Source of the DNA: Peptococcaceae bacterium
Lineage (GTDB): Bacteria > Bacillota > Desulfitobacteriia > Desulfitobacteriales > Syntrophobotulaceae
Length of the DNA: 34,738 nucleotides
Assembly: GCA_012839895.1 (NCBI GenBank)
Contig: DUML01000094.1
Location: 1-34,738 of the forward strand
Direction of reading: 5' to 3'
Shown piece after piece: positions 6,001 through 27,145 of this stretch. Each line of letters starts with the position of its first letter. The stretch's first letter is position 1. The translations under genes were made by a program, and so were the position numbers. The notes under the pieces are model-generated. The model was not told the DNA's origin. It ran no database searches and worked only from the letters and a program-made list of their open reading frames with translations.

Positions 6001-9000
6001 AGGCTTTGACCAATATCTCATAAGCCCGAACCTTTGTATTGTCACCGATATCTACAGTGATATTCGAATCGAGCACGGCTGTAGCTTCAATATAAGTAAC
6101 CTCGGCGCCAATGGCAACATTTATGGTATCCACATATACTTCCAGCGCGGTGGAAGCTTCAGCGATAACTTGAACATTACCGTCGATATCCAGTTCTAAA
6201 CCCTTGCCGAGGTAAGCCTTAACAGTAGGTCTGACTTTAGCGGTAGCAAAAACTATAGTTCCGCCGATAGCTCCGCTGCCCGAAATGCCGGAAGATTTGG
6301 CCTTAGCCGTAACCTTCGAATCGGGCAGGGTGACCTTGGCATTGACTTTCACATTGGATTCGTTAAGTCCGACAAGTACAAGCAAATAGTCCTCAAGGGT
6401 TTCTTTCTCCGTGAATTGCCCGTAAAGATCTAGCACCAGAATTCTGCCTTTGGAAGTAATCCCACGAACGGTGTAAATTCCGTCGTAACCGTTCTCGGAA
6501 CCGATTAGACGAATTTGCTGACCGGCTTTGAAGCCCTCTTCTTCCCAACTGCCGTGATTACGGACAATGCAAGCTAAGTCCTCGGCGGTTATGGACAAAC
6601 CGGAGCCGGTATAGTCCTCATCAACTAATTCAAAGCCGTAGTCCAGGTAAAGGATTTTACCGTCCTCGCTAATATCTAAAATGATGAATTCACCGTTGTT
6701 TTGTCCATTCCCGGCACCTGTAATCGTGATTGTCTGTCCGGGAGCAAAGCTGTCGGCGTTCCAGTCCCCTTCATCGCGGATTATTTCCGAAGGAATGAAC
6801 TTGATGACGACAACACCTTCTATTGTTCCTGGAACGACCAGTCCGCTTGTATCTAAAATGGCCGTCTTTCCGTCGTCGAGAAAACCGATAATCTTATAAA
6901 CACCGCTGTTAACACCGGCACCGTTTTCGCCCTGACTGGGGGTAATTACCGTGATGTAGTCGCCTTCATTTATTCCATCTCTACCCTCGTTGTTGGTGAA
7001 ATCTCCCCAATTTTCATCGCCATTGTAAACTAATTTATCCCGACCTTTATCCCCGTCAGCCAGAATCTCCACTTGGGACGGTTTATCAGACGGATTTAGA
7101 GCCTTAAGTATTATTTTGACGGTGGTAAGTGTAATCGTTTCTTTATCCCCAAAATCAAGATCGGCTATATCTATAATGAGCTTGTTGTCCTCGAGCCCAA
7201 TGACCATGCCTTCCAGCTCATTACCGTCTAACAGCAATACTATTCCGTCGCCGGGGCGAGGATTAATTGCGTCTTTCCAGTTCCAATCTTCATCATCTAG
7301 GCGCTGTAAAACTATCCTGATTACTTCCAGCTCCTCTTCACTGTCTTCATCTTTATAGGTAACCGTCTCTTGCGATAAGCTAAACCCGCCGCTTAGCTCT
7401 ATTTCGACGTCGTTGGCATCAATGATTTCGTCCCGCAGTATATTGTCAAAATCCGGTTGAAGGATGAGGACCTTGCCATCTTCGCTGATAGCCTTAATCA
7501 CATATTTCCCGTCATTGAAACGGGTTCCGGAAATCTCAATGGTATCTCCGGGCTCAAAACCGTCCTCCCACCAACTGCCCTCATCTTTGCGGGTAATGGT
7601 GGGCGGCTCGCAGATAGAAGCCGATACTCCTTCAGCGTCCACTAGCTTACTGCGGGTATCAAGTACTAAAGTCCCGTCTTTCAGTATACTGATAATCCGG
7701 TATTCACCGTTTAAGTATTCATAAGCAGGGTCATTGATCTTAACAATAATACTGTCTCCGGTTTCAAACCTTCCGTCTCTCCATGACCAATCCTCCGGAG
7801 GCTCTACCAGACGAATGCGGTCGTGGCTGCGGTCAGCATAGATAAATACTGCCGGATTATTAGTAATTCCTTCAGATTCAACAACTGCCTCCTGATCATC
7901 AAGGATATCGCCCAAATCAAGAATAATGGTTCTTCCATCTTCACTTATGCTCCAGATGGTATACTTACCGTTATTCTTTTGAGTACCTTCAACAGTGATA
8001 ACATCTCCCTCTTGGAAACCGTCTTCGCGCCAATTACCATCAGTGCGGGTGATCTTGCTTCTTTCCCAACGCAAGGTTAAGTTATAATAATAAGAAGAAT
8101 CAAATGTTGTCTCCTCAGAGATTTCACCTTTAGTGGCAAGAATTAAGGTGTATTTTTCATATGAACCATCAGAAGTATGAATAATGTCTATTACGCGGTA
8201 TTTATCAGTTAACTGATTGTTATAATAAGTATAAAAATCTTGATACCAAATTGAAACGTAATCCCCAATTTGTAGCACTGATAAATCATTATTCCAACCA
8301 ACTATTACCTCAAAAATATCGTAACCGTTTTCGCCTTGTTTCAATGTTGCTCCGTTAATATTTTGGCTACCTGTTTCGTGTTCAAATTTCAGAGTGCCAT
8401 AATCCGTCATTACAGCCACTAGACCAATGGAAACCTGATAGCCTGAATCTGTATCTGGCTCTATGGTTTCATTCGTTAACGGAGTGGCTATGTCTATTAC
8501 AAGGACTTTACCGTTATCGCTTATAAATTTGATTTCATAGATTCCATCGTTGTTATCTGTTCCTTCGATAAGAACAGTATCCCCGGGCTTAAAGCCGTCT
8601 TGGCTCCAGCTGCCGTCATCATTGCGGGTAATACTGTTTCTTTTCCAGCTTAAATAACGATACTCCGGATCCGTAATAGGCTGAATATCTTCATCAGTAG
8701 TTAGAACAGCGGTATTGTATTCAACGCCTACTACCAGGAATTGTAACGGTGACGAATCATTTTGAGACATTCTTATATATAGATAATCTCCGGGGAGGAT
8801 TATATCCGTCAAATCCAGTTCTATATAGTCGAATTCTTCATCAACCAAAGCGTAATCCCAGACTGTAAGAATATAGTTCCCGTTTTCTCCCTCGGTAAGA
8901 GTTACAAATACAAAATTAAAAATTTCGCCTTTTAATTCACCCTCTCCATTTTCAAACACCAATCCCGGCTGGCCGGTCATGGCTACTCCGCGGATCAGGT

Positions 9001-12000
9001 CGTATTCGCCCTCGACTATTATCGAGCCTTCAAAGACCAGATCCGGATCGCCGGACATGGCCACACCGCGGACAAAGGTGAATTCCCCTTGAACTTTGAT
9101 CGTGTATCCGCGGAATTTCAAATCGGGATTGCCGGTAAGTTCTGCTTTTTCTAACAGGGTTAATGTGGGATTGCCGGTAACCGGTAAGGTAGCGGCAAAG
9201 ATGTAGGTGTTATCCCCGATCCAGGCATTTACAACCGGCTCAACCGTAACGTCGGCTACAGAGCCGCCGATATTGCCGCCTATGGCACCAGATATGTTTT
9301 TAACCTCGGCGACTACATCCGGAATTATTTCCGCATTTATTTCAACATTTTTGGATACAATCACATTGGCGTTATTGCCCAGGTAAGCATCGACATGCGG
9401 AGTTACGTTGGCCAGAGCAACATAAGCACGCACCCCGATCCCTCCGGTGCCTGCAATAGCCTGGCAAAGGACCTCAACCTTCTCCCTGGACTCGGCACGG
9501 ATATCCAAACTCAAAGCCCGGATATAAGCATAATCTCCGACATAAGCCAGCGTCCTTTCCTTAGTAGAAATACTGCCAATTGTTCCACCGAAACCGACTA
9601 TTCCATCTATGGCAACATGACTGGGATATGACTTAAGGTCATATTCATTCTTAGCCTCGATTGTTACCTTTCCGTCAGTGACAATCCGGACGCCCTCATC
9701 TTCATTTTGCCCTTTTTCTACGGCGGCCATAGTAACCCTGTCGCTGCGGTCGGCGTTAATGTTCAGAACTTCTCCCAGTTTAGTAGCTATTTTAGACAAG
9801 TCATCGAAGAAATCAATCAGCTTAATAAGCCTGTCGCCAAGAATGCTAGGCATCCGGGAGCCCTTTTGGCCGTCTTTATTGTAGGAGAAGAAAGCATCTT
9901 TGGCTAAATCGTTATCAAGCTGATCTAAAAGTTCTTGGCTAAACTCTTTTTTACCGTCCTCGTCAATCGCAGTTCCCACAATAATTATGGATACGGCGCC
10001 GGACAAGCCGACTAATCCGGTAGCATTGATGGAATATACCCTAGAATTAACTGTTTTGACGGATTGGGCCTTAACATCTACACCGTCACGGGCATAAAGC
10101 TTGCTTGCAGCTTTAATCAAGGCTATGGTGCGGTTTTGAATGTTGACCAGATCCAAGGAGGCACCCACACCGAAACCTAATCCGCCGGACAAGGCTCCGC
10201 CAAGGGTTTTAACCTTAGTTTCGTTATCCGCCGATACCAGCACTGTTTGCTTATCAGCATCCGGCCGGTACAATCCTCCCAGACGGAAGCGATCATCCTG
10301 ATTTACCTCACCTTGCAGGTAGGCTTCTGTGATCGTTTCAATCAAGGTAAGCCCTATGCTGCCGGCAACTCCACCTGTCGTACCTATTCCTCCGGTACCT
10401 ATGATCAGATCAATGTGATCCCGGGAGCGGGCTATGACTTCAATGGCCTTGGAAGCATTCAGGCGGGAAGCTTCAACATAGGCCCGGACAATATTATCGA
10501 GAGAGGTAAAGAAGATACTGCCGCCAGTACCGACAAAGACTAAATCGGCAGCAACATCAGCAATAACGCTCTCAACTTTGACATTATGAACGGATTTTAC
10601 GGTTATGTCACCCTGGGTGAAGAGGTCGGATTCTTCCACAAATGCTTCATTAATATTCTCCATCAGGAGTACCGAGACGGTTCCGGCAATAACGCCCGTC
10701 GTGCCGACTGCCGCCCCGGCAATGATTATACCCTTCTTACCCTCTTCCAGCGGATGATAATTTGTCAATGCCCAAACTTCGATACCCTCCAGGGCATAGA
10801 CAAGGGACTCGTCATCAATATAAGCTCTGGTCCAATGTTGCACATGAATTGTATTCAAGGCAGTCCCAGCTGCTGCACTTGCACCCACAGCAGCTGCACC
10901 GGTATAAATTACTATACCGGTATCCTGATGGGCACGGATAATTACTTTCCGTCCCCATTCATTCTCGTTATTTATCGTGGATGAAGTGATATATGCTTCT
11001 GTTAAGTTTTTCAAAGTATTGGCGGACAGTTCACCGCTAAACGCTGCGCCTCCTGCGCCAAGAGAACCGGTATATACTGTCAATGAATCCTGGCTATAGG
11101 CTATTATAATCAAGCCTTTCTCCTTCGGGTTGTCGCCTTGGTCCATGATCTGCTTACCGTTATCATCCCAAGCCAGGACTTCGATTCCGTCTCCGTTACC
11201 TCGGGCAATAACTTCCGATCCGCTGATATAAGCCCTGGTAGTACCGTCAATGACGTTGACCACGGCAGCGGCGCTTGCGCCGATTATAGCGCCGCCGAAG
11301 GATCCGCCATAACTGCCAATTGAATTGGCGGATTGGGCCAAGATATAAATATTATTATCAGCGCTAACCTTACTGCCTGCTATATAAGCCTCGACCAAAC
11401 TTGTAATAACATTGGTAGCCACTGTGCCGGAGGCTCCGACCCAAATACTCAGGCTGCCGCCGGCGGCAATGGTATCAATACTGGCATCGAGTAAAGCCCA
11501 GATGATTATATTACCCGTGGCTGTTATATCACTGGCTTTCTTATTATTTTCTCCAAGAATATCGTCTATATAGGCTTTAACAACACTGTTAATGTCGTTA
11601 TAGGCTAAAGCGGCTCCAATGGCTGCCCCGGTGGGAATCGGCACGGGACCGGTAATAACTCCGGCGCTAAATCCGATCTGACCGGAAACGGACTTAATAT
11701 AGGAAGTATCTTTAGCTAGGACTTCAATGTTTACCGCTTCAATCTTGCTGGCCGTGATATGGCTTAAAACGGTGTTGTAGATAGTATTTAAGGAAAGGGA
11801 ACCGGCAGCCGCAAAGGGGAAAGAGTTTACGCCTACTGCAGCAGCAATGGCGCCGGACACAGTCTCAATGCCGGAATCGCACTCGGCCAGGACCAGCACA
11901 TCCCTGCCTGCAGTGACGGTAGAGTTGATAATCGCCGCCGAATACTCATTATAGAGATGATTTACCGCCAGCGCCGCTCCCAGACCAACATTGAGGCCTC

Positions 12001-14692
12001 CGGATACTCCGCCTGCCACGGCTTTAATCGAAGTAAATTTGATTGGTTCTTCGCCTTGATCAAGCTGTCGACCGTGTTCAAAGGAAGTGACCTTTTCATA
12101 ATCCTCTTCGTCGTCCCACTCCGGCTGTAAGGCACCCTGAGGAATCCAATCCCTTTTCAGGGTCAAAGCCTTAACGCTTACGTCTTTCCCCGCCTCTATA
12201 GCCGAATTTATTATCCAGGCTAAAACATCATTATGGATAAAGTTCAGAGACAGGGAACTCCGATAAGCGCCCATTTTACCTCCGACGGCAAAACCGGCGC
12301 TAATGGCAAAGATAATGGAGTTATTCGTGGCCGTAACTATTACGGAACCGCCTTCAGCAATGACCTCGGAATTAGAAATATAGGCCCGTACTTTACCCTT
12401 TTCGGTAAACTCCGGCATAGGATATTTATAGTCCTCTTCGGAAACGCCTTGTTCGCCGGAAGCACTATCGTAAGGATAATCAGGGCTATCAAATAATTCA
12501 TTTTTAAATAAATCCTCATACCATTCGCCTAAACTGTCTATACCGCCACCGATAAAGACAATAGCCATGGCAGCCCCGGCACCCAGCGCACCACCGCCGG
12601 AAACATCCCCGGCGATAACGCTGACCGCGGAGTTGTCAACAGCGTCTATGGTAATATCCTGTTTGGCTTGGATATATTTTTCTTCTCCCTGACAACCGTG
12701 TATATAAGCGGCTACATCGGTATAAATCCAGTTGATGGAAACGGAACCGTTTACCGCCACCTTGCCGGCAAAGCCGCCGGTGGCCGCAATACTTTTGATA
12801 ATAGCTTCCGACAAGGCTTTAATCGCAATGGAACCTTGCTCAGAAACTACCTTGGAATTTTCTATAAAGGCATGAATTTGGTGAGCTTTAGAAAAACCGC
12901 CGATGAAGTTAACTGCCAGCGAGCCACCGATGGCGTTGCCCCCAGCTATCCCTAAAGCACCGGCAACAGAACCGATTTTCGACTTATCAGAAGCCGTCAA
13001 GAAGACGCTTTGGTCCGCTTCTACAGTTGAATTCTTGATATAACTTGCAACAACATAGCCTGCAATATCATTCCCGATAGTATTGACCGCTATCGAACCG
13101 TTGCCGGAAGTTGTGCCGCTAAAACCTCCGCCCACGGCAAAAGCAGTGATGTTTGTCTGGGAAAGGGCCGTAACGGTTACATAAGAAGCACTGATAACAA
13201 CAGTATTATTGGCGGAGTTCTCATCTCCGATATAAGCTTGGATATTATTACTGATATCGTTATAGGTAGCGGCAGCGCCGATACCCGTTTTTCCTGTGAA
13301 ATTAACCTGGCCGCCCAAAGAGAAGATATTGGATCTGTTGGCAGCATAAACGGTAACTCCGGGATAATGTCCGTCTGTCACCTGGGTACTGGTATTACCG
13401 CTTTCAACCGTGCTGTCTTTTATGAAACTATGGATATCGTTACGGATAAAGTTAAGGGAAAATGAACCGGCGAAAGCCAGCGAGCCGCTGCCCGCCGCAC
13501 CGGCCGCAACCGCAAAAATGGCGCTTTCCGACTCGGCGATCAGAATAATATCGCCGCCGGTTGATTTAACTATGGAACCGGAAATACCTGCCAGGTTATT
13601 TATCGACAGGTAGTTGACCGCCAGGGCCACACCGGCCCCTGCTTTGCCGCCGCCGGCCACTAAACCTGCTAAGGCTTGGATAGTAGCAAGTTTAAAGATA
13701 CCGTTATTAGGATCATTAGGATTACCGTTATATTCCGCTACCACTTCATCTGAACCATTTCTGTCAGGTTCCAAAGCAGTCAAAGGAATATCGCTTCTTC
13801 TGTTAGCGCGGGCCTGTAAGAGAATATCCCCGGCGGCCTCGACAACCGAATTAGTAATCAAAGCTTCAATATTTGCAGCCAGGTAATTAAGGGCTACCGA
13901 TCCCTGAACGCCGACATTTTTACCTACAGCCGCCCCGGCAGCAATGTTAAAGATAACGGAATTGGCAGTTGCTTTTAGGCTAATGCTGCCATTCTCGGAT
14001 TTCACATTCGAATTATGAATAAGGGCTGCAACTTGACTGTACCTGTCCAAGCTTTCAAATAGGTCCGGATAAGCATAAGCATCCGCCGGAAGGTCCGCCT
14101 CCGGACTGCTCTCATCTTCCGGCTCATAATCTTCTATCAATTGATTATTTTTATACTGCTCAAAGGGATCGTTTTTCAGTGAACCGATAAAGATGATGGC
14201 TATGGCCGCGCCGACTCCGGTGCCGCCGGAACCGGCAATATTTCCGGCCAACACGCTGACGGCCGTATTATCCACCGCCTCCAGCGTAATATCATCTTTG
14301 ACCAGGATAAATATTTCATTCTGATTTTCGTCTTGGCCGCTGCAGTCCTTAATATAGGCCAAGATATTCATATTGACATAGTTCAGAGAAACTGCTCCGT
14401 TTACGGCAGCGAACTTCCCTGAGAAACTGCCTACGGCGCTGATGCTCTTAATAATTGCATTGGAATAAGACCAAAGCTTAAGATAGCCGTTCTTAACTTC
14501 TACCCTGGAATTATCAATATAGGCATTTACCTGATAAGGTTTAAAAGCTTCACCATAACCGCCGATATAATTGGCTGCCAGGCTGGCACCTACCGCCAGA
14601 TGTTTAGCCCCGCCTAAAGCTCCGGCCAGGGAGCCGATATCGGCTTTGTTCAGAGCTATAAGTTCGACCTTAGAATCCGTTATAACTGTCGA
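1..14692 (-). CDS. Giant repetitive surface/adhesin-like protein, third segment, runs off the left edge
   Basis: This frame is open from 14695 to the window edge (about 4,897 codons) with no stop that I found. It continues the protein of 18309-14680 after a one-base shift, because the same repeat pattern resumes at once. Visible sections in protein order: Gly/Ala-rich beta-solenoid units of roughly 100 residues carrying an AYI-x-x-S-x-V signature (about 14690-9240); eight copies of a GSW-x-x-DGF-x-x-GD module (about 8660-6400); more solenoid units (6400-5100); FhaB-like short repeats of the 'GNI/GDI' type (5100-500); an aromatic-rich insert (about 3440-2860); an EF-hand-like loop DLNDDGKARLDE (about 1966-2001); and an RTX-like GDGDDEI stretch near 250-330. 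The C-terminus and any anchor lie outside the window. The first ATG in frame is at 14371, but nothing suggests independent initiation there. A cell-surface or secreted role is inferred from the leader on the first segment; the ligand is unknown. Similar repeats occur in giant LEPR-XLL or FhaB-like proteins. Confidence 0.8.
6400..8660 (-). repeat. Eight copies of a GSW..DGF..GD beta module inside the giant protein
   Basis: A module of about 50-60 residues recurs with the pattern (I-x-R)-x-G-S/D-W-x-x-D/E-G-F-x-x-G-D/Q-x-I, then G-x-x-x-N-D/N-G-x-Y, then I-S-x-D-G-K-x-L-x-L-D. The tryptophan-containing cores lie near 8620, 8025, 7780, 7570, 7270, 7000, 6760 and 6535. The copies have diverged (some lose the DGF), so they are old duplications. 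The N-D-G-x-Y part resembles small beta domains common in phage tail and giant adhesin proteins; that link is from memory. The block interrupts the Gly/Ala-rich solenoid. Confidence 0.75.
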
Positions 14693-17600
14693 ATATTAAC
14701 CGTCACGGAAATTGCCGTGGACATGCCTTCCTTGCTGGCGCCGATAGCAGACGCGACAGCGATAATCAAATTGTTGGCTTCAGCCGTTAATTTCAGAGCA
14801 TTTGAAACATTTACAGTGGAATTATCGATATAGGCCTTAACTGCATTATGCTGATCGCCAATAGCTTCGATGGGTATATCGTTCAACGCTATGGCTGCGC
14901 CGATACCGGCCTTGCCTCCGTAGTTCAAAGCCCCGGCCACAGCTATAATCATGGTACGGTCAGTCGCAGTCAAGGTTATATTCTTAGCCGTTACATTTGC
15001 CTGATTGAAAATTCCGGCTACAACTTCACTGGCTATAGTATTAATACTTACTTGCCCGGCGACACCACCGCTAGTAGTAGAAGTTTCCCCTGAGCCACTG
15101 GCCGCCACCGCAATAATCCGTTCTTCGGCCTCGGCTGTAATTTCCACTTTTTCGGTAGCAGTTACCTTGGAATCTTCAATAAAGGCTTTGGTTTTATTGG
15201 CGATTCTATTTAGGGCAAAGGAGCCGGCCAAGCCCGCTGATTTTCCGTCCTTGGTAACTATAGCCGCCGACCCGCCGACTGCGATCACTAACGTTCTGTT
15301 GTGGGAGGCAATGACTAAATTAGTGGAATTCAGAGACGCTTGACGGATATAGGCCAGCACTTTGTCTTGAATGTTATTGATTACTACCTCAGCGGAAACG
15401 CCTACTCCATAGCTGCCGCCGTTTTGGGGAGCTTCTTTTTTGTTTTCCGGTTTCGGATCAGTCTTCGTGCCGGCGTAGGTTCCGGCCACAGCCACGCTGA
15501 TAATAAAGCCGTCATTTTGAGCCTCAACCTGTACATCCTTGGCAGATACAGTCAGCTCTCCTTCGCCCGGCTTACTTCCGTCGGTGCTGTCATGCAGACT
15601 GCCGATAACAGCTTGGGTGTCACGGCTTACGCCGTTATAGCCCCCGGTAGACCCAATACCGATATTGCCACCGCCGCCTTGGGAGACAGCGATCACACCG
15701 GCTACGTTGACAATGTAGGTGTAGTCATTGGCTTTAACAACTACCTTTCCGCTTTCGGGGCCGCTTCCAAGTACAACTACACGGGCTCCGTTTAAAATCT
15801 GAGCAATGGTTTGGTTGTTAACAGTCAGCCAAGTAAAAGTTCCTTCCAAGCCAAACTTCTCGGACTGACCGCCGGCGGCGGAAATTACAACGTTTAAGAC
15901 CTTGGTATCCGAGGTAACGTCCAGATTATTGGCATACAAATTCACTTGATCCCTGATCTCGGCTTTGGATGTATTATTCTGAATAAAGACTATTACCGAA
16001 CCGCCTGCGGCAGCAGTTTTAGCACTCGTGCCTTCACCGCCCAGCCAAGAATCGAACTTAAATTTCATTTTTTCTAACTGCTTTGTATCTATATTAAAGC
16101 CGGGAAGTTCAATATTGCCGCTGAAATAAACTATTTCATCAATAAGATTAGACTGGACTTTAACATTCTGTGTCCCGGTGCGATAAGCCGGCTCATCAAT
16201 TTGATTGATCTTCACGCCCTGATCAATGTAGGCTTCCGCCGAATTATTCCTGACAACTACTGATATCGAACCGCAGGCGCCGATTTGCGCACCGGCGGCA
16301 TTACTTTGCACCCAGAAGTTAAAAATCTCTTTAACACCCATACTATCGTCCAAATAGGTTGTCAGGTGCGTAATAAACTCCGTAACCTGGTACTTCCACC
16401 AAGATCCCAAGTCTTCCCATAAGTTTTCATCGGTATAATCTATTGCGCTGAGATCTTTGTTGGTTAAAGGTTCGCCGCCTAGATACTTATATAGGTTCCC
16501 GGGCTCTCCGCCGGCGGTGTGCCCATCTTTAACTTCAACAATATCGTCTCTATTTATGGTAACATCCTTATCATCGGTAGAGTAAAAGTCCCCGATCAAA
16601 TACTTAATAAGTTCTATGCCGTATTTAAATTCGTAATCATTAATATAATCAGCCTTAACAGTCAGATCCTTAGCAGCATCGACATGAGCGTTGGTACCAA
16701 TATAAGAGGTGACATTATTTTTAAGAACAGCAACGGCTATCGCCGCCGCGCCGGCAAATTTAGTCTCTTCTTCAGGATCTTCACCGGGATTCGGTCCTGT
16801 GCCTCCTTCGCCGCCGGTCTGATCATTCTCGGATTTATCAACTGAGCCTGTGGCTATAACATTGGGCTGGTTTTCAGCCAGGGCATGGACAGTTGCCGCA
16901 CCCCTGGCTCTAACGTTAGCATTGGGGGAAATGTAGGCCTTCACTTCATTACTATCCACATAGACGGCTATGGCAGCAGCCAGTTCAAAAGAAGAAACTT
17001 GGCTCCCGCTTTTTTCTTCAATTTCATCCTTTTTCTCTAAAATATATTTATTGATAAATTCCTTAATATGCTTTTTAGCAAAGCCAGAGATTTTACCGGT
17101 AATCACACCTTTAATATCAGTGAGATGATCGCCTGACACGTTGATATTAGCTCCGGAATAGGCGTATACGCCATCTTCTATAGAAGGGAAAAGGAATAAT
17201 TTATTAGCCTCTACGCCTTCTTCGATCATATAGGCTCCGACCACAATATCTCCTAGGACATCAACCGTACCGGCCAGACAGGCCTCAGTCAAACCTTCTT
17301 CATAAGAAAAAGCTATAGCAAGCCCCGCTTTGCCGTTTTCGTCCGTGGTGGAACGGGCAAAAGTACGATTACGGTCAATAGTCCTGGCATCAATCGTTAG
17401 ATTTCCGCCTACCTGCAGATTGGATGTCCCGGCACTGCCTCCCACAGAGACTTTGGAAGTAGAAACTAAGACACTTACAGCTACTCCGGCACTAAACCCT
17501 TTAAGTCCGCCACTGGCACCTTCAACATTCAGGGTATTGTCGGCTAAGGATTTAAGGGTGCAATCTCCGGCAGTAATTATGGTACCATCCACAATTACCT

Positions 17601-18309
17601 GGGCATTGGAAATACCAACACCAACTGCCACCCCGACAGCAATAGCAACAGGAGAAGCAGACGCCGCAATATAAGAAGCAGACAATGCCGCAAAACTATC
17701 GGCTATTATCTGGCTGCCGGTACTAATAGAAATCAAAGAAGTAGCTTTGGCCACGGCAACTCCGCCGACTAAAGAAAAATCTTCAACAATCCCTATGGTC
17801 TTCTCGAATATAGTTTTTAATATGTCAGTAACCTTGTCCAGCGCTCCGGTATCTCTCAGAAGATCCGGGTCATCCACTTCAGGACTAAATATTTCCGTGG
17901 TGTCGGCCTCAGCCGTAAAGCTTACGGCCTTTCCTTTAATTATTACTCCTTCGCCAATTTTGATAATGGCCTCAGGAGTATCGATATCTATTCCGGGAAT
18001 CATGTCCACAAAGTCCGCATAGCTGGAAGCATGGGAGTTAATGGTGATGTCGCCGGCAGTGAAAGTGCTTCCCTGCTCAACATGAGCCAGAATCCGGACG
18101 TTCTTGCCAATGTCTACCTGCTCGGCTTCAAGATATATCTTGCCCGAATTCCCGGCAGAGACCCCGTTAAGGTAATCCGTTTCCCCTTCGGCAAGCTTCC
18201 GAGTGCTAAGCGTAAGACCATCTCGAATGGTAATCTCCTCAAAAGGTTTATTTTGTATAGCACCTTTTTCCGCTGACTCTATTTTCAAATCATAACCCGG
18301 ATAAATCAA
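14680..18309 (-). CDS. Giant repetitive surface/adhesin-like protein, second segment
   Basis: This stretch of about 1,209 codons is in the same frame as 19347-18313 and is separated from it only by a TAG and one GAT codon. The nominal TTG start at 18309 has no ribosome binding site and sits in mid-domain, so this is probably not an independent gene. It begins with a short beta-rich section, then Gly/Ala/Val-rich solenoid units (for example VAIAVGVAVGVGISNAQVIV) each followed by an AYI-x-x-S-x-V or similar strand. Near 16560-16400 is a non-repeat insert containing DGHTAGGEPGNLYKYLG and DYTDENLW, a motif I recall from giant LEPR-XLL-type proteins. It ends at TAA 14680-14682, 13 bases beyond the point where the next frame opens. 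The expected AYI strand is missing at the junction, which suggests a small deletion or a one-base loss. The function is presumably structural, in an extracellular stalk. Confidence 0.8.
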   Translation of the reverse strand: MIYPGYDLKIESAEKGAIQNKPFEEITIRDGLTLSTRKLAEGETDYLNGVSAGNSGKIYLEAEQVDIGKNVRILAHVEQGSTFTAGDITINSHASSYADFVDMIPGIDIDTPEAIIKIGEGVIIKGKAVSFTAEADTTEIFSPEVDDPDLLRDTGALDKVTDILKTIFEKTIGIVEDFSLVGGVAVAKATSLISISTGSQIIADSFAALSASYIAASASPVAIAVGVAVGVGISNAQVIVDGTIITAGDCTLKSLADNTLNVEGASGGLKGFSAGVAVSVLVSTSKVSVGGSAGTSNLQVGGNLTIDARTIDRNRTFARSTTDENGKAGLAIAFSYEEGLTEACLAGTVDVLGDIVVGAYMIEEGVEANKLFLFPSIEDGVYAYSGANINVSGDHLTDIKGVITGKISGFAKKHIKEFINKYILEKKDEIEEKSGSQVSSFELAAAIAVYVDSNEVKAYISPNANVRARGAATVHALAENQPNVIATGSVDKSENDQTGGEGGTGPNPGEDPEEETKFAGAAAIAVAVLKNNVTSYIGTNAHVDAAKDLTVKADYINDYEFKYGIELIKYLIGDFYSTDDKDVTINRDDIVEVKDGHTAGGEPGNLYKYLGGEPLTNKDLSAIDYTDENLWEDLGSWWKYQVTEFITHLTTYLDDSMGVKEIFNFWVQSNAAGAQIGACGSISVVVRNNSAEAYIDQGVKINQIDEPAYRTGTQNVKVQSNLIDEIVYFSGNIELPGFNIDTKQLEKMKFKFDSWLGGEGTSAKTAAAGGSVIVFIQNNTSKAEIRDQVNLYANNLDVTSDTKVLNVVISAAGGQSEKFGLEGTFTWLTVNNQTIAQILNGARVVVLGSGPESGKVVVKANDYTYIVNVAGVIAVSQGGGGNIGIGSTGGYNGVSRDTQAVIGSLHDSTDGSKPGEGELTVSAKDVQVEAQNDGFIISVAVAGTYAGTKTDPKPENKKEAPQNGGSYGVGVSAEVVINNIQDKVLAYIRQASLNSTNLVIASHNRTLVIAVGGSAAIVTKDGKSAGLAGSFALNRIANKTKAFIEDSKVTATEKVEITAEAEERIIAVAASGSGETSTTSGGVAGQVSINTIASEVVAGIFNQANVTAKNITLTATDRTMIIAVAGALNYGGKAGIGAAIALNDIPIEAIGDQHNAVKAYIDNSTVNVSNALKLTAEANNLIIAVASAIGASKEGMSTAISVTVNIRQL

Positions 18310-18312
18310 ATC

Positions 18313-19347
18313 CTATTCTATGACCACTTTATTGTTAAAGCTGGCCCAACTGCCTGAGACGCCAGATTCTACCTGTTCCCCTTCTGAGTTTTGTACATAT
18401 TTAGGAGCCAAGTAAAAGTCCAGGTCGTATGATAAGAAAACAAAGATTGTATCATGTTTTAATTCAAAAGTCCATTCATACGATTCATACTGCTTCCCAG
18501 GTACATCAACTTTAACTTTATAATTACCTTCTTCTAGCGGGAACTCGTTTAATTTAACAAAGTAAAATTCATAATCTCCTTCGTCAAATTCATATCTTCC
18601 GTAAAATCCTTCATCAAACTCACGTTGATTATCTGTATCCGAAGTTCCAATTATGTAATTCCCATTATTATCCCAGAGACTTACAACTATATCAATAGTT
18701 TCATTTTGGATGGCTTCTTTAGTCAGCGTATCATAAAGGGTACCAGAAATAGTAATTTCAAAACGCTGAGGTTCCTCCTGAAGAATCCCAAATCCTTCTT
18801 CGCCAAGCTCGCCTTCTTCAGATTCCTTGCCTGCCTGGCCATCTTCAGTACCTTCATCATTACCGGTGTCTTCACCACTGCCGGTGCCTTCACCATTACC
18901 GGTGCCTTCCCCACTGCCGGTGCCTTCCCCACTGCCGGTGCCTTCACCATTGCCGGTATCTTCACCGTTACCTGTACCTTCACCATTATCAGTGCCTTCA
19001 CCACTGCCGGTATCTTCACCGTTACCTGTACCTTCACCATTATCAGTGCCTTCACCGCTGCCGCTACCTTCACCGCCACCGGTGCTTTCATCGCCAACGC
19101 TACCTTCGTCGCCAACAGTACCTTCACCGCCAACAGTACCTTCATCGCTACCGGAACCTTGGTCAGCACCAGACGGTTCATCTCCGCTGGTAATATTTTC
19201 CATAGGAGAAGTCTGAGATGCTGGATTATCGTCTAGGGCATAGGCCTGGGAAAGGGGTGCAACAAATAAGAGTAATAGAACCCCCATTAGGATCAGGCCT
19301 AAATACATAGTCCTCTTTTGAGTTGTTTTCCTAATTAATCCGTTCAT
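18313..19347 (-). CDS. Giant surface protein, N-terminal segment: signal peptide, Gly-Glu-Thr repeat and beta-sandwich domain, ended by in-frame TAG
   Basis: The ATG at 19347 follows GGGGAG with a good spacing, so this is the real start of the giant gene. Residues 1-37 form a signal peptide: a basic head, a long Leu/Val core and a likely cleavage after AYA. Residues 68-169 are 17 tandem hexapeptides of the GEGTGN/GEDTGS type, an acidic flexible linker. Residues about 194-325 look like a carboxypeptidase-regulatory or Cna-B-like beta-sandwich (TISGTLYDTLTKEAI...). The frame then meets TAG at 18313-18315, and the next codons continue the same protein in the same frame. Possible explanations are a nonsense mutation, a sequencing error, or suppression (pyrrolysine or another amber decoder). 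If TAG is a true stop, the product is a 344-residue secreted protein without the repeat region. The TPR gene lies 229 bases upstream with no terminator visible between. Confidence 0.85.
   Translation of the reverse strand: MNGLIRKTTQKRTMYLGLILMGVLLLLFVAPLSQAYALDDNPASQTSPMENITSGDEPSGADQGSGSDEGTVGGEGTVGDEGSVGDESTGGGEGSGSGEGTDNGEGTGNGEDTGSGEGTDNGEGTGNGEDTGNGEGTGSGEGTGSGEGTGNGEGTGSGEDTGNDEGTEDGQAGKESEEGELGEEGFGILQEEPQRFEITISGTLYDTLTKEAIQNETIDIVVSLWDNNGNYIIGTSDTDNQREFDEGFYGRYEFDEGDYEFYFVKLNEFPLEEGNYKVKVDVPGKQYESYEWTFELKHDTIFVFLSYDLDFYLAPKYVQNSEGEQVESGVSGSWASFNNKVVIE
18841..19146 (-). repeat. Tandem 18-base coding repeat, 17 units
   Basis: Seventeen 18-base units encode hexapeptides that follow G/D-E-G/D-T/S-x-x. 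Several internal units are nearly identical at DNA level (alternating 'ggtgccttcaccattacc' and 'ggtgccttccccactgcc' on the plus strand). Because 18 is a multiple of three, slippage would change linker length without breaking the frame, so copy number may vary between strains. It is not a CRISPR: there are no unique spacers. Confidence 0.85.
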
Positions 19348-19576: not shown

Positions 19577-21496
19577 TTATTGTCCAGCCTCTTTATCAGC
19601 TTCGATTAACTCCAGAACTTTCTTAGCCTCAGTAAGCAAGACTTCGTTTTCAGATATTTCCAGTACCTTATTCAAATCGTCAATGGCTTCCTCAACTTTA
19701 TTCTGGCTTAAGTAAGCTATGCCCCGGTTAAAATAGCAAATATCCAAACCGACTCCGAGCTCGATAGCCTTGGTATAATCCTCGGCCGCTTCCGGATATT
19801 TTTTCTGCAAGGAATAGACGTTGGCCCTTTGATAATAGGCAGAACCCATTTTGTCATCCAGTGTGATAGCCCGGCTTAAATAAGTCAGGGCCTGATCGTA
19901 GTCGTCTAATTTGAGATAAGCAAGTCCAATTCGGAAATTCACTTCAGCATCATTTTCGTTAGATTGAAGGTAGGTCTGCCAATCCTTTATAGCTTCTTCA
20001 TACTGCTCCAGTTGGAAATAGGCCAAAGCCCTTTGCGCATAGGCAATTACTAAATCCGGATATGATTGCAGAAGATCACTAAGATCTTCAACGGCTTGCT
20101 GGTAAGCTCCCTGCTTTAGATAAAGCAGTGTCCTGTTATACCGGGCAATTATATTGTCAGGATTTAGGTGCAGGGCTTGATTGTAATCCTTGAGGGCAGC
20201 CTCGAAATCCTGCAAAGCGAAATGAACACCGCCCCGGGCGGTATAAGCTTCCGCATAGGAGGGAGCCAAACGGATAGCCGCATTTAAGTCAGCCAAGGCT
20301 GCCTGGTAATCACCGCATTCACGGTAAGCATTAGCTCGGTTATAATATACTTTGGAATCGGAAGCATTCAATTTTAAGGCTTGAGAATAATTGTCAATAG
20401 CCTCTTCAAACTTTTGTTGTAAATAATAGATGAAGCCCAAACTGTTATATGTAGCGTATTCCTTGGGATTTAAGCGAATTGCTTCTTTTAAATCAGCTAT
20501 AGCCAAATCCAATTTCCCTAAGCGGCCGTAAGCTATTCCCCTATTGGTATAGAGAAAAGCCTGGTTCTTATCACACTGGATAGCTTTCGACCACTCTGCG
20601 GCAGCACCGGCAAGATCTCCTTGCCCGTACAAAATATTTCCGCGGTTTGCATAAACAACTAATGAAGGTCCGCTTAAGCCTTCTACTTTATTCCAATCCC
20701 TCAATGCCTGTTCATTTTTTCCTAAATTCTGATAAGCCATGGCTCGCATTAACCAAGCCCGGGCGTTGTTCTCCTCCCGTTCAATTACAGCAGAAGCGTC
20801 CTGTGCCACCTGGAACCAGTTGCCAAGAGCTGCATAAATGTTAGCTCTTTCCAACAAAGCACCTGTATTGGACGGTTCTCTTTCCACGACAACATTCAAA
20901 TCTTGAAGGGCATTTTGCGTTTGACCCAAAAGAGCATGGATTTGACTACGGAGAAAATAGACAATTGTCAAGCTGGGATCTAATTCAATAGCCTTATCAA
21001 AATCCTGCAACGCTTTCTCAATATCCTCCAGCCGCAGATAAACTTGTCCTCTTTCAAAATATAAAGGAGCTATTTGGGGGGCTAAGGCAAGAGCCTTATT
21101 GTATTCTTGCAGGGCTTTGCCGTATTCGCTTTTACTGTAAAAATCTCGTCCGGACTCCACCCAGGCAAGGAGCTCAACCACTTCCTCCTCGCTTATATTG
21201 GCGGAAGCTGCGCTAAATGACATATCTTCGTCTATCAATCCGTCTCCCTGTAGTCCTTGGCCTTCGTCAAGTTTATTAATGTTTTCGGGAACAGGTAAGA
21301 TACTCAAATCCTCAATCCGGGCCATAGTCTGTTGGGAACTAAGGGCTTCTCCTTTCTGAGTCTTAAGCGCATTTAAACTCTCCTCATCCGGACTAATTTC
21401 GGAAGAGCGAAACAGGCTTGTAGAGGCGCCGGCCAGCGTCCCTAAAAGAAATATTAAAGCTACAGCAAAAGCAATAAGCTTGCGATATTTTTTCAT
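19577..21496 (-). CDS. Secreted or membrane-anchored TPR-repeat protein
   Basis: About 639 residues. The ATG at 21496 has GGGG six bases upstream; the TTG two codons earlier has no space for a ribosome binding site, so I take the ATG. Residues about 4-25 form a hydrophobic signal or anchor (basic KKYRK head, then a Leu/Ala/Val core) and residues about 30-100 are a low-complexity acidic linker. From about residue 105 to the end the protein is almost entirely tetratricopeptide repeats, about 14-15 copies, with signature positions such as A-x-x-x-Y-N-x-A-L-x-L-x-P and Y-F-x-R-G. TPR arrays bind other proteins, so an exported array suggests a scaffold or chaperone at the cell surface. Directly upstream of the giant surface gene, it may help in export or assembly of that protein; this is inference. 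Confidence 0.88.
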   Translation of the reverse strand: MKKYRKLIAFAVALIFLLGTLAGASTSLFRSSEISPDEESLNALKTQKGEALSSQQTMARIEDLSILPVPENINKLDEGQGLQGDGLIDEDMSFSAASANISEEEVVELLAWVESGRDFYSKSEYGKALQEYNKALALAPQIAPLYFERGQVYLRLEDIEKALQDFDKAIELDPSLTIVYFLRSQIHALLGQTQNALQDLNVVVEREPSNTGALLERANIYAALGNWFQVAQDASAVIEREENNARAWLMRAMAYQNLGKNEQALRDWNKVEGLSGPSLVVYANRGNILYGQGDLAGAAAEWSKAIQCDKNQAFLYTNRGIAYGRLGKLDLAIADLKEAIRLNPKEYATYNSLGFIYYLQQKFEEAIDNYSQALKLNASDSKVYYNRANAYRECGDYQAALADLNAAIRLAPSYAEAYTARGGVHFALQDFEAALKDYNQALHLNPDNIIARYNRTLLYLKQGAYQQAVEDLSDLLQSYPDLVIAYAQRALAYFQLEQYEEAIKDWQTYLQSNENDAEVNFRIGLAYLKLDDYDQALTYLSRAITLDDKMGSAYYQRANVYSLQKKYPEAAEDYTKAIELGVGLDICYFNRGIAYLSQNKVEEAIDDLNKVLEISENEVLLTEAKKVLELIEADKEAGQ

Positions 21497-21565
21497 AGCC
21501 AACCCCGCAGTTATAAATTCAAAGTCATATACTCTTATAATTAGCAGCGATATCGAAAACTCAGA

Positions 21566-21594
21566 AATATAACAATCCTAAAAACTTCAACCAA
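21566..21594 (-). promoter_or_regulatory. Candidate promoter of the TPR/giant gene unit
   Basis: On the minus strand TTGGTT (21589-21594) is followed by a 17-base spacer and TATATT (21566-21571), about 70 bases before the TPR start codon and downstream of the terminator for the sensor operon. The -10 matches 5 of 6 consensus positions; the -35 is weaker. Confidence 0.45.
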
Positions 21595-21693
21595 AAAGAT
21601 TCTTTTTCCAAAACGTTTTTTTGCAAATAAAATTCCAAGTTAATAATAACAAAATAAACCAAATTCGTGTACAATTTTTCTGTATTTGGTCAA

Positions 21694-21749
21694 AAAAATA
21701 AAATGAACGGTTATTTTTAGACGATAAATGGTGTAGAAAAAATAACCGT
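21694..21749 (-). terminator. Rho-independent terminator after the response-regulator gene
   Basis: A perfect 12-base inverted repeat (acggttattttt at 21707-21718 and its complement at 21738-21749) with a 19-base loop is followed on the minus strand by TCATTTTATTTTTTT. It lies about 50 bases after the response-regulator stop codon. The stem is AT-rich, so efficiency may be modest. Confidence 0.6.
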
Positions 21750-21800
21750 CCAGGTTCAGAGACCAATTTTAGTCCGTATGTTAAATAACTTAGTGTTGCC

Positions 21801-22540
21801 TTATATACCGATGATCTCTTTCAGGGCTTTCCCGGCGTTACGGCTTACCGGTATACTTTCAAGATGATTGATAAGTTTTAAATTAAAAGTTTGATTAAAC
21901 ATAGGAATGATCTTTTCAATTTTATCGAGATTAATCAGAAAAGCTTTATGACAACGGGAAAAACCCCTATCAGTCAATTGCTTTTCCCAATAGTTCAAGG
22001 TATACCTGGTCTTATACTCCTTTTTTCCGTCACTGCCAAAACATTTCCGTCCTGGGCTTTAAAATATAAAATATCGGACGGCTTCAGTAATATAATTTCT
22101 TCGTTTTCCCAAACTAAAATCTTATTCTGACTAGACTTTAGGTATCTGCTTAACTCAGAAAAATTGTTATTATCCTGGGCAAATCTTTTTTCAATCTTAT
22201 CAATGGTCTGGCTTAACCTCTTTTTAGCCACCGGCTTTAAAATATAGTCCAGGGCATTAGCCTCAAAAGCCTTAATGGCATATTCATCATAAGCAGTTAC
22301 AAATACTATATAAGTATCCGGTTTTTTTGTCAGGATTTCTTCTGCTACAACAAAACCATTAATCTCCGGCATCTCAATATCTAAAAATACTACATCCGGC
22401 TGATAAGCAGCCAACTCCTTCAAAGCGCTAAGGGGATCGCTATAAGCTTGTTGAACCCGGATTTGAGCAAAACCCTTAAGAGCATATTTGAGCTCTTCCA
22501 AAGCCATTTCTTCATCATCAATAAGTATTGCTTTAATCAT
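21801..22540 (-). pseudogene. LytTR-family response regulator, broken by a one-base frameshift
   Basis: The first part (22540 to the shift) encodes a receiver domain: acidic pair D8/D9, phospho-acceptor D54 in FLDIEMP, and K102 in ILKP. The second part (to 21801) completes a LytTR DNA-binding domain (FSRCHKAFLINLDKI, ending IPVSRNAGKALKEIIGI). The two are out of frame at GAA AAA AGG (A6 run, plus-strand T6 at 22021-22026). With seven A the text reads EKKEYKTRYTLNYWEKQL, a normal LytTR, and the whole protein would be about 246 residues. As read, the product ends after ..KRSIRPGIP and lacks the recognition part. The ATG at 22540 has GGGAGGGG upstream and overlaps the kinase stop by eight bases (ATGATTAA), so the pair is translationally coupled. 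A homopolymer sequencing error, slippage-based phase switching or real loss are all possible. Confidence 0.85.
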
Positions 22541-25500
22541 TAGCAAATCCCCTCCCTTTGGTTTTATAAACAGTGACTGTAACCGTAGTTCCTTGGCCAA
22601 GGGCACTGCTAATACTAAGACCCTGACCGTAATAATACTTAAGTCTTTGATTTACATTTTGCAATCCTATCCCGGCCTCTTTGTTACCCCCGTTAAAAAT
22701 CCGTTCGATTTTATCTTCAGGCATACCTACGCCGTTATCTTTAACCTGAATAATCAGAGCATCTTTCCGGTCTTCAGCCCGGATTTCAATAATTCCACCC
22801 TCTTTAAGGGGATAAATGCCATGTCTTACCGCGTTTTCAACCAAAGGCTGGAGGATAAGAGGAGGGATTTGATAGTTAAGACCTGCAGGCAAATCAAACT
22901 TGACTTTTAATCTTTCGCCAAACCGGGCGCTTTCCAGATCAAGATAAGCTTTAATCAGGTCAAGTTCTTCCTGCAAAAGAATAAACCTATCCGTCTCGCT
23001 AAACCTAAATTTCCCCCGCAAATAGCAACTAAGCCCATCTAACAGTTCCCTGGCTTTTTCAGGGTCTTTACGGCAAAAACCCATAATAGTGTTGATAGTG
23101 TTATAAAGAAAATGGGGTTTAATCTGGGCCTGCAAAAAGCGCATTTCGGAACTCACCACTTCTCCCAAAGCGTGCTTTAAGGTCAGCAAAGTTTTTACCC
23201 TGGCCAGCATTTCCTGCTTATTAAAAGGTTTGGCCAGATAATCATTGGCTCCTACTTTCAATGCTTCAATTATATCCTCCTGACTATCCCGTACCGTGAG
23301 CATTAATACCGGCAGCTGCACCAAGGAGTATTCTTTCCTTATTAATTGACAGACTTCATAGCCTGATTTTCCCGGCAGCATAATATCCAAAACCACAAGA
23401 TCGAAGCATCCGTTTTTCTTAATCTTTTCTACAGCATCCATACCGTCTGAAGAACAAACAACTGCATAACCCTGCTTTTGAAGTTGGTTAGACAACACCC
23501 GTTGGTTAACAGGTTCATCGTCAACAACTAAAATTAGAGGTTTACCGGCAGCCATTTCGCTTGCCGGCAAGTTTAGGTCAGGTTTTTTAAGCGCCTGCTC
23601 TTGAAGTTTTATAGGGCCTGTTTCCTTTCCGCTTCTTACTTCTAATCCCTCAGAAGGTCTATTTTTCTCCTGTTTACCCGGAGCCAGCGGCAAAGTAAAA
23701 GAAAATGTCGACCCTTTCCCCGGCTCGGAATCCAGCTTGATACTCCCACCGTGGAGCTCTACAAGCTGTTTAGTAATAGTCAGCCCCAGGCCTACTCCAT
23801 ATTCCTTGGTCTTTGCTTCTACAATCTGCTCAAAAGAATTAAAAATGTTCTCTGCTTGTTCCTTAGGAATACCAATACCAGTATCTGTGACTGAAATCTC
23901 AACAAACCCTTCTTTTTTTTCAGCCGTTACTACAATGCTGCCTCGAGGAGTGAATTTTAGAGCATTGCCCACCAGATTATATAAGATTTGCAGCAAGCGG
24001 TTCTCATCAGCTTCAACATACGGCAGATCATCCGGTATTTCATTGCTCAGCTCAATTTCTTTATCCCAAGCTAAAGGCTGGCAAAGGTTTAAGACTACAT
24101 TGACTGCTTGTTTAATATCCACAGGCTTTTTGTCTAACGTTATATCCTTATTTTTAAGTTTGGAAAAATCCAGGATATCCTTAACCAGACCTGTTAACCG
24201 CCTGGCACAGGAAATAATTAAATTTAGATCGTATTTATGTTTATCGCTTAACTTCCCTGCGGCGCTTTCTTCCAAACCTTCCGCTATCCCGATAATACCG
24301 TTTAACGGAGTGAGCAGTTCATGGGAGACATTGGCCAAAAATTCATCTTTTAGCTTATCCATGGAAACAAGTTTGTCTTTCATTTGTTCAATAGTGGCAT
24401 AGGCATAAGCATAACGCCTGGAAAGCATAAAAGATTGGGACACAACGAAAATAAAAACTCCCAAGGGATACAGGTCGGGGAAACCCGCTTTTTCGCCGTA
24501 AAATAAGATATCATTTAAAGCCGCCAGGATAACCGGGCAAGTTCCGCCAATAATGATTAAAGCTCCGTTTCTTTTTCTCCAGGCAGCAAGGAGCAAGGCA
24601 TAAAGAATATAACTCCAAACAATCACGGTTATGATCTGGAAGGAGAGTAACAGCCTGCTGAAAAATCTAGCCGATGTCAACAAAACGATAACGGAATACC
24701 CTAAAGCCAGCAAATTATAAATATGGCAGGATTTTGGCGATACTTCTTCCGGAAATAAGGAATAGATAAATTGCAAAAACAGAGGCATGGCCAAATAAAA
24801 AGTAAAATACTCTATTTTTAAGACAATTTCCTGGGAAAGGTTAGGAAAATAATTTAAAATTAATATTTCCCCCACCAGGATAATCCTGAGCGCCGCCAAC
24901 AGACAAAATAAGCCGAAATATAAAGGTGATTTATCCTTGCGCCTTAAGGTGAAAAACATGAGATGATAAATCCCAATAATGAGCAAGGCCCCGAACAAGA
25001 ACAAATCCGTTATAAGCTGGCGTTCCCGGCCGGCGTGAATCTGGTCACTATTTCCTAAGGTAAGGGGTTGCCAAATCCCGCCCCGCCGGTGATTAAAATT
25101 AGAGACCTGGACAATAATTTCCAGTTCTCCCTTAGATTGTTTTAACTCAATTATTTGCGGATAGTATTTGGGAATAGCGCCTTCTAAAGTAGTGGATACT
25201 TCCCCCTGGGCAGAGAGCATTTCTCCATTAACCCACAATTTATGCGCGGTGGAAATCGAAGATATTCTTAAAGATTTCACACTCTCGCTGTCCGGTAAGA
25301 AGACTTTCAGGCGAAAAGTGGCATAACCGTTGCCGCCAAGTTTTTCTCCTTCCAACTGATAAGAATTCCAAGAGGCCGGAAGGCTGATGAGCCTTCGGGA
25401 AGGCAAGGTTTTTTCCTTTTCAAGAAAATCAGCCGGTTCCCAAAGCTCCTTCCAGTAAAATTCCCATTCGCCATTCAAATCGACATTACCCTGAGCGGTA

Positions 25501-25631
25501 AAATCCCATCCCCTTAAATCCAGAACCCCCTCCACAGCCTCAGGCGCTGTCTTCAAGGGCTGACAGCCGGTTAAACTTAAAGCCGAAATGATTATCGCTA
25601 TTAAGCTTAAATAAATGTAGGAACGCTTCAT
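22533..25631 (-). CDS. Hybrid sensor with two histidine kinase modules (7TMR-DISM, HisKA, REC, LytS-type kinase)
   Basis: 1,032 residues. The N-terminus has a lipoprotein signal with lipobox LTGC (C23), then an extracellular 7TMR-DISM-type beta domain (about 35-195) and seven membrane helices (about 207-405). HisKA follows with H437 in [11 protein letters not shown], and a HATPase domain (about 545-648) with N-box [16 protein letters not shown] and GVGLGL. A receiver domain (about 698-815) has D704/D705, D749 and K801. The end is a second kinase of the LytS/His_kinase class: [12 protein letters not shown] with H840, and a second ATPase domain with [14 protein letters not shown] and GIGLQN. 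The last module is the usual partner of LytTR regulators, and the LytTR gene overlaps the stop, so it should phosphorylate that regulator; HisKA presumably feeds the internal receiver. The start ATG follows GGGAGAAAGAG, ten bases after the GIDE gene. Confidence 0.92.
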
Positions 25632-25641
25632 CTCTTTCTCC

Positions 25642-26430
25642 CTAGCCGAACAACATCACTGAGATGCCTATTATTCCTAAAGCTATCCCCCCAAAAAAAG
25701 CGAGTCTGGCTTTAAATTTATTGCTTTCCACTAAATCTGTCTCGCTCCTCACAGAGACTATAAAGGGTTTTTTGCGGTCCGAAGGTTTGCCTACCCAAAC
25801 TCTGCCGTTTTCCAAATAGGCTTCACCTAGGACATACAGAGAATGTCCCAAAGGGATGACGTTTTCCGTCATCCGGTAACCCAGTGTCCGCGCGCCCATC
25901 GGGTTAAAACGTAAAGCATCAAAAAAACTATATTGCTGCATCATATTCAAAGGCTCAAACCTATCAAAGTCTTTAAAGGTATCTAAATCCATTCCCGCAT
26001 CGCTTAGGGCAATATAGACTTGGTCGCCGGATACGGCATCTTTGAGAATCAGGTTGCCGGAGCTTTTTTGGCTGGATATTTGTGATTCCCTTTTCTCCAT
26101 TCTCTGCCGGGTATGACCTTTATCATCTTTATAGGTACATAGTTCTTCGTAGACTTGATAAAGCTCGGCCTGGTAATAAGCCACATTCCGTTTGCTGTAG
26201 GGAGTTTCCTGCGGTGTTCCCACATCTGCTATTCCTTTTAGCTCTACATACTCCCGGTAGCCGGTTAACCCGGCGGCTTCATTTTCTCTCAAGTTCTTTT
26301 CTACTTCGCCGATGGTAGAAGTTCGCATAAACTGGATTTCCAGATTCTTATTTTTAATGCGCCTGTGAACATATACACTGCAAAAGACACCCAGGGCAAT
26401 TAGGATTAAACCTATTATTATTGATTCCAT
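25642..26430 (-). CDS. GIDE-domain membrane protein (E3-ligase-like family)
   Basis: 262 residues with a membrane helix at each end (about 3-20 and 243-260) and a soluble middle. The middle resembles the GIDE domain of the mitochondrial MUL1/MAPL E3 ligase: a G-x-A-x-V-G-T-P-x-x-x-P-Y-S-K stretch (about 66-80), then V-A-Y-Y-x-A-E-L, and a late GRVWVGKP. There is no RING finger, so ubiquitin ligase activity is not implied; in bacteria the domain's job is not known to me. It sits 46 bases after pspA with a GGTGGGGG ribosome binding site and ten bases before the hybrid kinase. A role in membrane-stress sensing with PspA is inferred from context. Confidence 0.75.
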
Positions 26431-26476
26431 ATTCTTTTACCCCCACCCTCTTGGTCCTTAAAAACTCTAAAGCAGG

Positions 26477-27145
26477 TCACTCCTTTGTTATTTCTCTCAT
26501 TAAACGGGCCAATTCCTCATCTGCGGCATTTTGTTTTTCCAGTTTAGCAAAGGGGTCTTCATCATTTCCTTCCCAGCCGGCTATTTCCAGCGCGGCATCA
26601 GCTTGGGCTTCCATCTGGGCAATTTTCCGTTCAAATTTTTCCATTTTGGCAAACGCTCCGTCACTGTCAACACCGCCAAGGGTCTCAGAAATGCTCCGGC
26701 GGGCTTCAGCCATTTGAGCCCGGGCCAGAAGCAGAGTTTGCCTGTTTCTGGCATCTTCCAGCTTGGCTTTCAGGTTATTGACTTGGTCGCGCATGGCATT
26801 CACTTGATTTTCCAACTGAGCATGCATTGCGCGATATTGTTTGATATTTTCGTCGAATCTAAGTTTCTCTTCTACCGCTTTTTTGGCCAGATCTTGCTCA
26901 CCGGCTTTTAGGGCAGTCTTAGCCCGCTCTTCCCACATTTTGGACTGCCCCTCGGCTGTTTCAATTTGCTTGCGCATTTGCCGCTCATTGGCCATAACCT
27001 GCCCCAAGCCCTGAATAGCCTTCTGCAACTGTTCTTCCATATCGATAATCATTTGTTTAAGCATTTTTTCCGGATCTTCGGCTTTGTCCAGTAAACCATT
27101 AATATTAGCTTTCAGTAAGTCAGCCAAACGTGAGAAAATAGCCAT
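26477..27145 (-). CDS. pspA: PspA/IM30 (phage-shock/VIPP1-like) membrane-stress protein
   Basis: 222 residues, the normal length for PspA/IM30. It starts MAIFSRLADLLKANINGLLD, the typical amphipathic helix that binds stressed membrane, followed by EDPEKMLKQMI and a long coiled coil to about residue 165 (heptads rich in Gln, Glu, Lys and Ala), and an acidic tail. PspA oligomers coat the inner face of the cytoplasmic membrane and limit proton leakage (family knowledge). The ATG at 27145 has a strong GAGGAGGAGG site. It is the first gene of the unit pspA-GIDE-kinase-LytTR. I found no pspF-like activator nearby and no clear SigW-type promoter. Confidence 0.93.
   Translation of the reverse strand: MAIFSRLADLLKANINGLLDKAEDPEKMLKQMIIDMEEQLQKAIQGLGQVMANERQMRKQIETAEGQSKMWEERAKTALKAGEQDLAKKAVEEKLRFDENIKQYRAMHAQLENQVNAMRDQVNNLKAKLEDARNRQTLLLARAQMAEARRSISETLGGVDSDGAFAKMEKFERKIAQMEAQADAALEIAGWEGNDEDPFAKLEKQNAADEELARLMREITKE

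Follow-up and report, generated by a model that had tools for sequence, protein, structure and literature searches.

A PspA Lineage Encoded Next to a BAM/GIDE Membrane Protein in Bacillota and Actinomycetota: a Phage-Shock Variant Apparently Not Described Before

Introduction

In E. coli, the job of recruiting PspA to the membrane and of releasing it is carried out by PspB and PspC. In B. subtilis, PspA requires YdjG/H and YdjI for its membrane localisation (PMC8581546), and a dedicated membrane partner for PspA thus has a precedent, GIDE being another family. Two surveys of PspA gene neighbourhoods describe many partners, with the term GIDE absent from their main texts (PMC11237479, PMC9239133), and literature searches returned no paper joining PspA and GIDE. 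A paper on the evolution of BAM/GIDE proteins makes no mention of PspA and calls the conserved function of these proteins an open question (PMC4457424). The GIDE protein considered here is a little-known membrane protein and a bacterial relative of the mitochondrial MAPL.

The window, meaning the whole stretch of DNA analysed (34,738 nucleotides), is an entire contig (C101) of a draft genome of 2.84 Mb of a Peptococcaceae bacterium (GCA_012839895.1). An initial annotation had joined six of its genes, from pspA to a giant surface gene, into one directional cluster that could be a single system. What we describe instead is a distinct PspA lineage that is encoded right before a BAM/GIDE protein with two transmembrane helices, in both Bacillota and Actinomycetota; the two genes co-occur and diverge in step, and their other neighbours vary. 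The pair is apparently an undescribed variant of the phage-shock theme.

The Locus

The genes named in the initial annotation are all there, on one strand (the minus strand), and its coordinates and spacings are right. In the order of transcription, the locus consists of a decarboxylase-like gene, speE, pspA, GIDE, a double-kinase sensor gene, a LytTR regulator gene, a TPR gene, and the pieces of the giant, and in the profile search of the window proteins the Pfam scores of the genes from pspA onwards are far over the cut-offs. A gap of 46 bases separates pspA from GIDE and one of 10 bases separates GIDE from the sensor gene, while the sensor and regulator genes overlap by 8 bases. The 10-base gap suggests that GIDE and the sensor are co-transcribed at this locus, and it could reflect a functional link between the two in this organism. 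The regulator and TPR genes are separated by ~300 bases, and a consensus scan of the minus strand in this gap picked up no promoter-like site and no terminator-like one. The decarboxylase-like gene and speE (polyamine synthesis; 29724-27391) lie directly upstream of pspA; spermine synthase is listed among pspA neighbours in the main text of one of the two PspA surveys (PMC11237479, PMC9239133). That the contig is a contaminant of the genome bin is disfavoured, as the closest relative of the sensor (71% identical) belongs to the same family.

The PspA and GIDE Proteins

The product of pspA (26477..27145, minus strand; 222 aa), the first gene of the conserved pair, is a member of the PspA/IM30 family of the ESCRT-III superfamily: its match to PF04012 (E=3.8e-50) spans positions 2-217 of 220, with the N-terminal amphipathic stretch included, and full-length matches to PspA/Vipp1 are present in the PDB. 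GIDE (25642..26430, minus strand; 262 aa) matches PF12483 at E=4.2e-25 (88.5 bits versus a cut-off of 23.6), and both the structural model and hydropathy place its domain between two predicted transmembrane helices. In the model (mean pLDDT 86), a beta domain lies between a long helix at the N-terminus and another helix at the C-terminus. In all 11 GIDE proteins checked, 4-6 positive residues are found just after the first transmembrane helix and none before it, so that, by the positive-inside rule, the beta domain is predicted to be on the cytoplasmic side, where PspA acts. No RING domain was matched in GIDE by Pfam, the protein ending with its second transmembrane helix; it is thus not an E3 ligase of the MAPL/MUL1 type, and the Pfam title "E3 Ubiquitin ligase" is not to be taken as a function. 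When the GIDE model was compared by fold with the PDB, no structure reached E<=0.001 and the matches were all weak and of low TM, some of them to OB-fold proteins, and a GIDE profile search of the PDB sequences produced no credible match.

Distribution and Descent of the Pair

Among the 83 genomes of the class and the 398 genomes of the phylum that were searched for GIDE (PF12483), only the window's genome was positive. It possesses two GIDE copies, which share 76% identity, and two pspA copies, which share 79%, with one pspA near each GIDE. A single scan of public genomes returned seven further loci, all fairly close relatives, two of them in Clostridia and five in Actinomycetota; in six of the seven, pspA is immediately upstream on the same strand, while the seventh (L009, near a contig end) lacks pspA, the sole PspA of that genome being a distant one (27% identical). 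One Actinomycetota class, represented by 40 genomes, encodes GIDE in nine, four of them new, and in all of them pspA is directly upstream. No match to GIDE was found in plasmids. Overall, for the one GIDE subfamily sampled, pspA directly precedes GIDE on the same strand in 11 of 13 loci from Bacillota and Actinomycetota, with gaps of 10–97 bases. The other two are L009 and the second locus of the window's genome, on contig C60, where the order is pspA, a clostripain-type lipoprotein, an exported protein with CWB2, thioredoxin and CAP domains, and GIDE, so that pspA is two genes off; the two intervening genes lie at L005 5435-9974.

Within the Actinomycetota class, PspA of the paired lineage is encoded in all nine of the GIDE genomes and in one additional genome among the 40 (the Fisher value of 3.7e-8 ignores relatedness and is descriptive only). 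In this tenth genome (G490), the PspA is truncated, its match reaching no further than residue 93, and the search for GIDE was negative. The genes downstream of pspA–GIDE vary between the loci and include Tex, PrsW and the double kinase. A Tex-family gene follows the pair in three Actinomycetota genomes (L011 1894-4089, L012 4455-6632, and L013 2270-4447).

In phylogenetic terms, the 12 paired PspAs form one clade (support 100/99), apart from the 30 unpaired PspAs, of which 29, with 24-34% identity to the window PspA, are encoded by relatives of the window's genome and one by the L009 genome. Pairwise distances of PspA and of GIDE correlate at r=0.81 (12 pairs). These patterns fit a unit that would have been inherited, duplicated and lost together, and transfer of the pair into the lineage of the window's genome is likely, since the relatives of that genome lack it. 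The link between pspA and GIDE, as part of the original claim, is well supported, by its recurrence across two phyla and by the single clade of the paired PspAs.

A Two-Gene Unit

Our favoured reading, which we hold to be reasonably probable, is that pspA-GIDE, a phage-shock variant of two genes, is the unit that matters here, with GIDE as a membrane partner dedicated to PspA of this lineage, and that the sensor–LytTR and the TPR–giant genes are independent modules. The shared travel of the two genes across two phyla suggests that their products work together. GIDE would be situated in the cytoplasmic membrane, its beta domain facing the cytoplasm, and it may act as an anchor or adaptor devoted to PspA, whose polymer, of the ESCRT-III type, it would recruit, nucleate or release at damaged or strained membrane, in the role of PspB/PspC in E. 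coli or of YdjG/H with YdjI in B. subtilis. In the window's genome, the pair would stand ahead of a sensor kinase-LytTR module and a TPR-giant module, each independent of it.

Rather improbable, in our estimation, is adjacency without cooperation, in which a single segment would have been inherited or transferred with two genes of unrelated roles. The paired PspAs belong to a single lineage, so the two genes may have come together just one time; one GIDE is solo (L009), and joint descent can keep genes adjacent without any physical interaction of their products; however, the adjacency has persisted between two phyla in spite of changes in the other neighbours, and both genes are in two copies in the window's genome and both are affected in G490.

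The Sensor and Its Regulator

The sensor gene (22533..25631, minus strand) encodes a 7TMR-DISM domain, a HisKA-HATPase, a receiver, and a LytS-type His_kinase-HATPase, as assigned by Pfam and by homologues in relatives. Its closest relative, 71% identical, is in G005, a member of the same family, where a regulator follows and where neither pspA nor GIDE was detected on the 3.9 kb contig. The response regulator (21801..22540, minus strand) had been annotated as a LytTR regulator, and its receiver and LytTR domains are both there, with the sensor beside them, but the frame does not read through: the receiver frame stops at 21995, the LytTR part is in a different frame (22058-21801), and the frame is thus broken between about 22060 and 21995, inside the LytTR domain.

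Similar arrangements are found in the relatives and elsewhere in the same genome. In G026 and G037, a related double-kinase sensor has a regulator and then a large secreted protein after it, an order that was not seen for the related sensors of G031 and G050. All three giant loci of the window's genome adjoin a two-component system, represented by the double kinase-LytTR pair in the window, by a LytS-like kinase with a LytTR regulator on contig C79, and by a HisKA_7TM kinase with a LuxR-type regulator on contig C70. In G348, a giant comes immediately after a kinase and a regulator that share 39% and 45% identity with their C70 counterparts. A two-component system beside a big surface gene is a recurring theme, independent of pspA–GIDE, into which the double-kinase/LytTR pair fits, and it is plausible, and fair to infer, that the sensor serves the neighbouring surface gene, as the initial annotation had proposed.

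The sensor could alternatively respond to membrane or wall signals and regulate pspA-GIDE itself, as LiaSR does liaIH, with the surface genes as bystanders. The tight spacing of GIDE and the sensor speaks for such control, but in the stretches read at the other pspA-GIDE loci there is no such sensor, it is found without the pair in relatives, and its regulator is frameshifted, making this an unlikely arrangement.

The TPR and Giant Genes

The exported TPR protein (19577..21502, minus strand; 641 aa; TPR_1 E=4.7e-92) is encoded directly before the giant, and this arrangement recurs in one relative of the same taxonomic order, G036, whose TPR protein is 51% identical to that of the window (window 21502-19577; L076 9516-11417). 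The giant of G440 also has a TPR match ahead of it, a weaker one. Elsewhere in the phylum, several giants have a gene for a ShlB/FhaC-like transporter in the place of the TPR gene, as confirmed by a domain test for one of them (L078). A profile scan of the window recognized no TpsB/ShlB/FhaC transporter, the downstream side of the giant being off the contig, and the window thus does not present a two-partner secretion locus.

The giant was found in three pieces on the minus strand, rather than as one intact gene. The N-terminal piece (18313..19347), encoding a signal peptide and a low-complexity stretch, can be aligned with the start of the unbroken giant protein on C70 and ends at an in-frame stop; the second piece (14680..18309), of the tandem-repeat filamentous family (NF012206, E=1.4e-37), continues in the same frame past this stop codon; and a frameshift interrupts the reading again ahead of the third piece (3..14371), which encodes at least 4789 aa and runs off the contig. 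With the frameshift in the regulator, the interrupted frames in the window amount to three, and they were kept unrepaired in the analysis. The genome (G000) encodes three giants of one family (C70 at ~54.4-70.8 kb, C79 at ~36.2-59.0 kb, and window 3-19347), the window copy being the broken one. Sequencing error is a possible cause of the broken frames, but as a general explanation it is a poor one, since the other two giants have uninterrupted frames, 5487 and 7608 codons long; an assembly error is also possible, since the sensor on C79 is likewise in pieces. This LytS-like sensor, next to the giant of C79, is spread across three frames (L072 9852-11828). The surface locus of the window, comprising the sensor-regulator and TPR-giant genes, was probably once sensor-regulated and is now damaged.

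As to the view that PspA and GIDE guard the envelope during the export of the giant surface protein, under the control of the double kinase with its LytTR regulator, the common strand, the tight spacing with only 10 bases between GIDE and the sensor, and the two-component systems beside all three giants are in its favour, but it appears very unlikely. The six-gene neighbourhood is not conserved, an outcome that the initial annotation had itself named as refuting: the sensor, TPR and giant genes are in no other pspA-GIDE stretch that was read, and pspA and GIDE are in no other giant stretch that was read, with no match in 17 further stretches upstream of giants. In addition, the 71% relative of the sensor is on a contig with no pspA-GIDE detected, and the regulator and giant frames are broken. 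The six genes thus split into pspA–GIDE, sensor–regulator and TPR–giant modules, and the attractive interpretation of the window as giant export plus a stress monitor does not hold.

Comparison with Known Systems

In conclusion, the pspA-GIDE pair, spread over two phyla, offers a direct test of BAM/GIDE function and of PspA tethering where the usual partners are missing. A broader and decidedly speculative proposal would be that the BAM/GIDE proteins of prokaryotes serve as membrane receptors of PspA polymers, which are of the ESCRT-III type, and that the link between BAM and membrane remodelling (compare MAPL and the mitochondria-derived vesicles) predates mitochondria; we consider this doubtful.

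Among the described systems, the psp system of E. coli and the lia system of B. subtilis resemble the pair, according to the main text of one survey, in combining a PspA-family effector with membrane partners (PMC11237479), and none of PspB, PspC, PspF, LiaI, LiaF or LiaG was matched among the window proteins scanned, which sets the locus apart from the classical Psp and Lia systems. The pspA (ydjF)-ydjGHI genes of B. subtilis likewise group pspA with integral membrane proteins needed for the membrane localisation of PspA (PMC8581546), but the partners there are YdjG/H and the SPFH protein YdjI, whereas the window encodes a single BAM/GIDE protein. The giant pieces match the same repeat family as other tandem-repeat filamentous giants (NF012206), several of which, however, follow a ShlB-type transporter gene, while the window and G036 have a TPR protein in that place. 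Finally, the eukaryotic BAM-RING proteins MAPL/MUL1 are, like GIDE, membrane proteins with a GIDE/BAM domain between two transmembrane helices (PMC4457424), but the GIDE of the window is devoid of a RING and its domain is predicted to be cytoplasmic, whereas that of MAPL faces the intermembrane space (PMC4457424).
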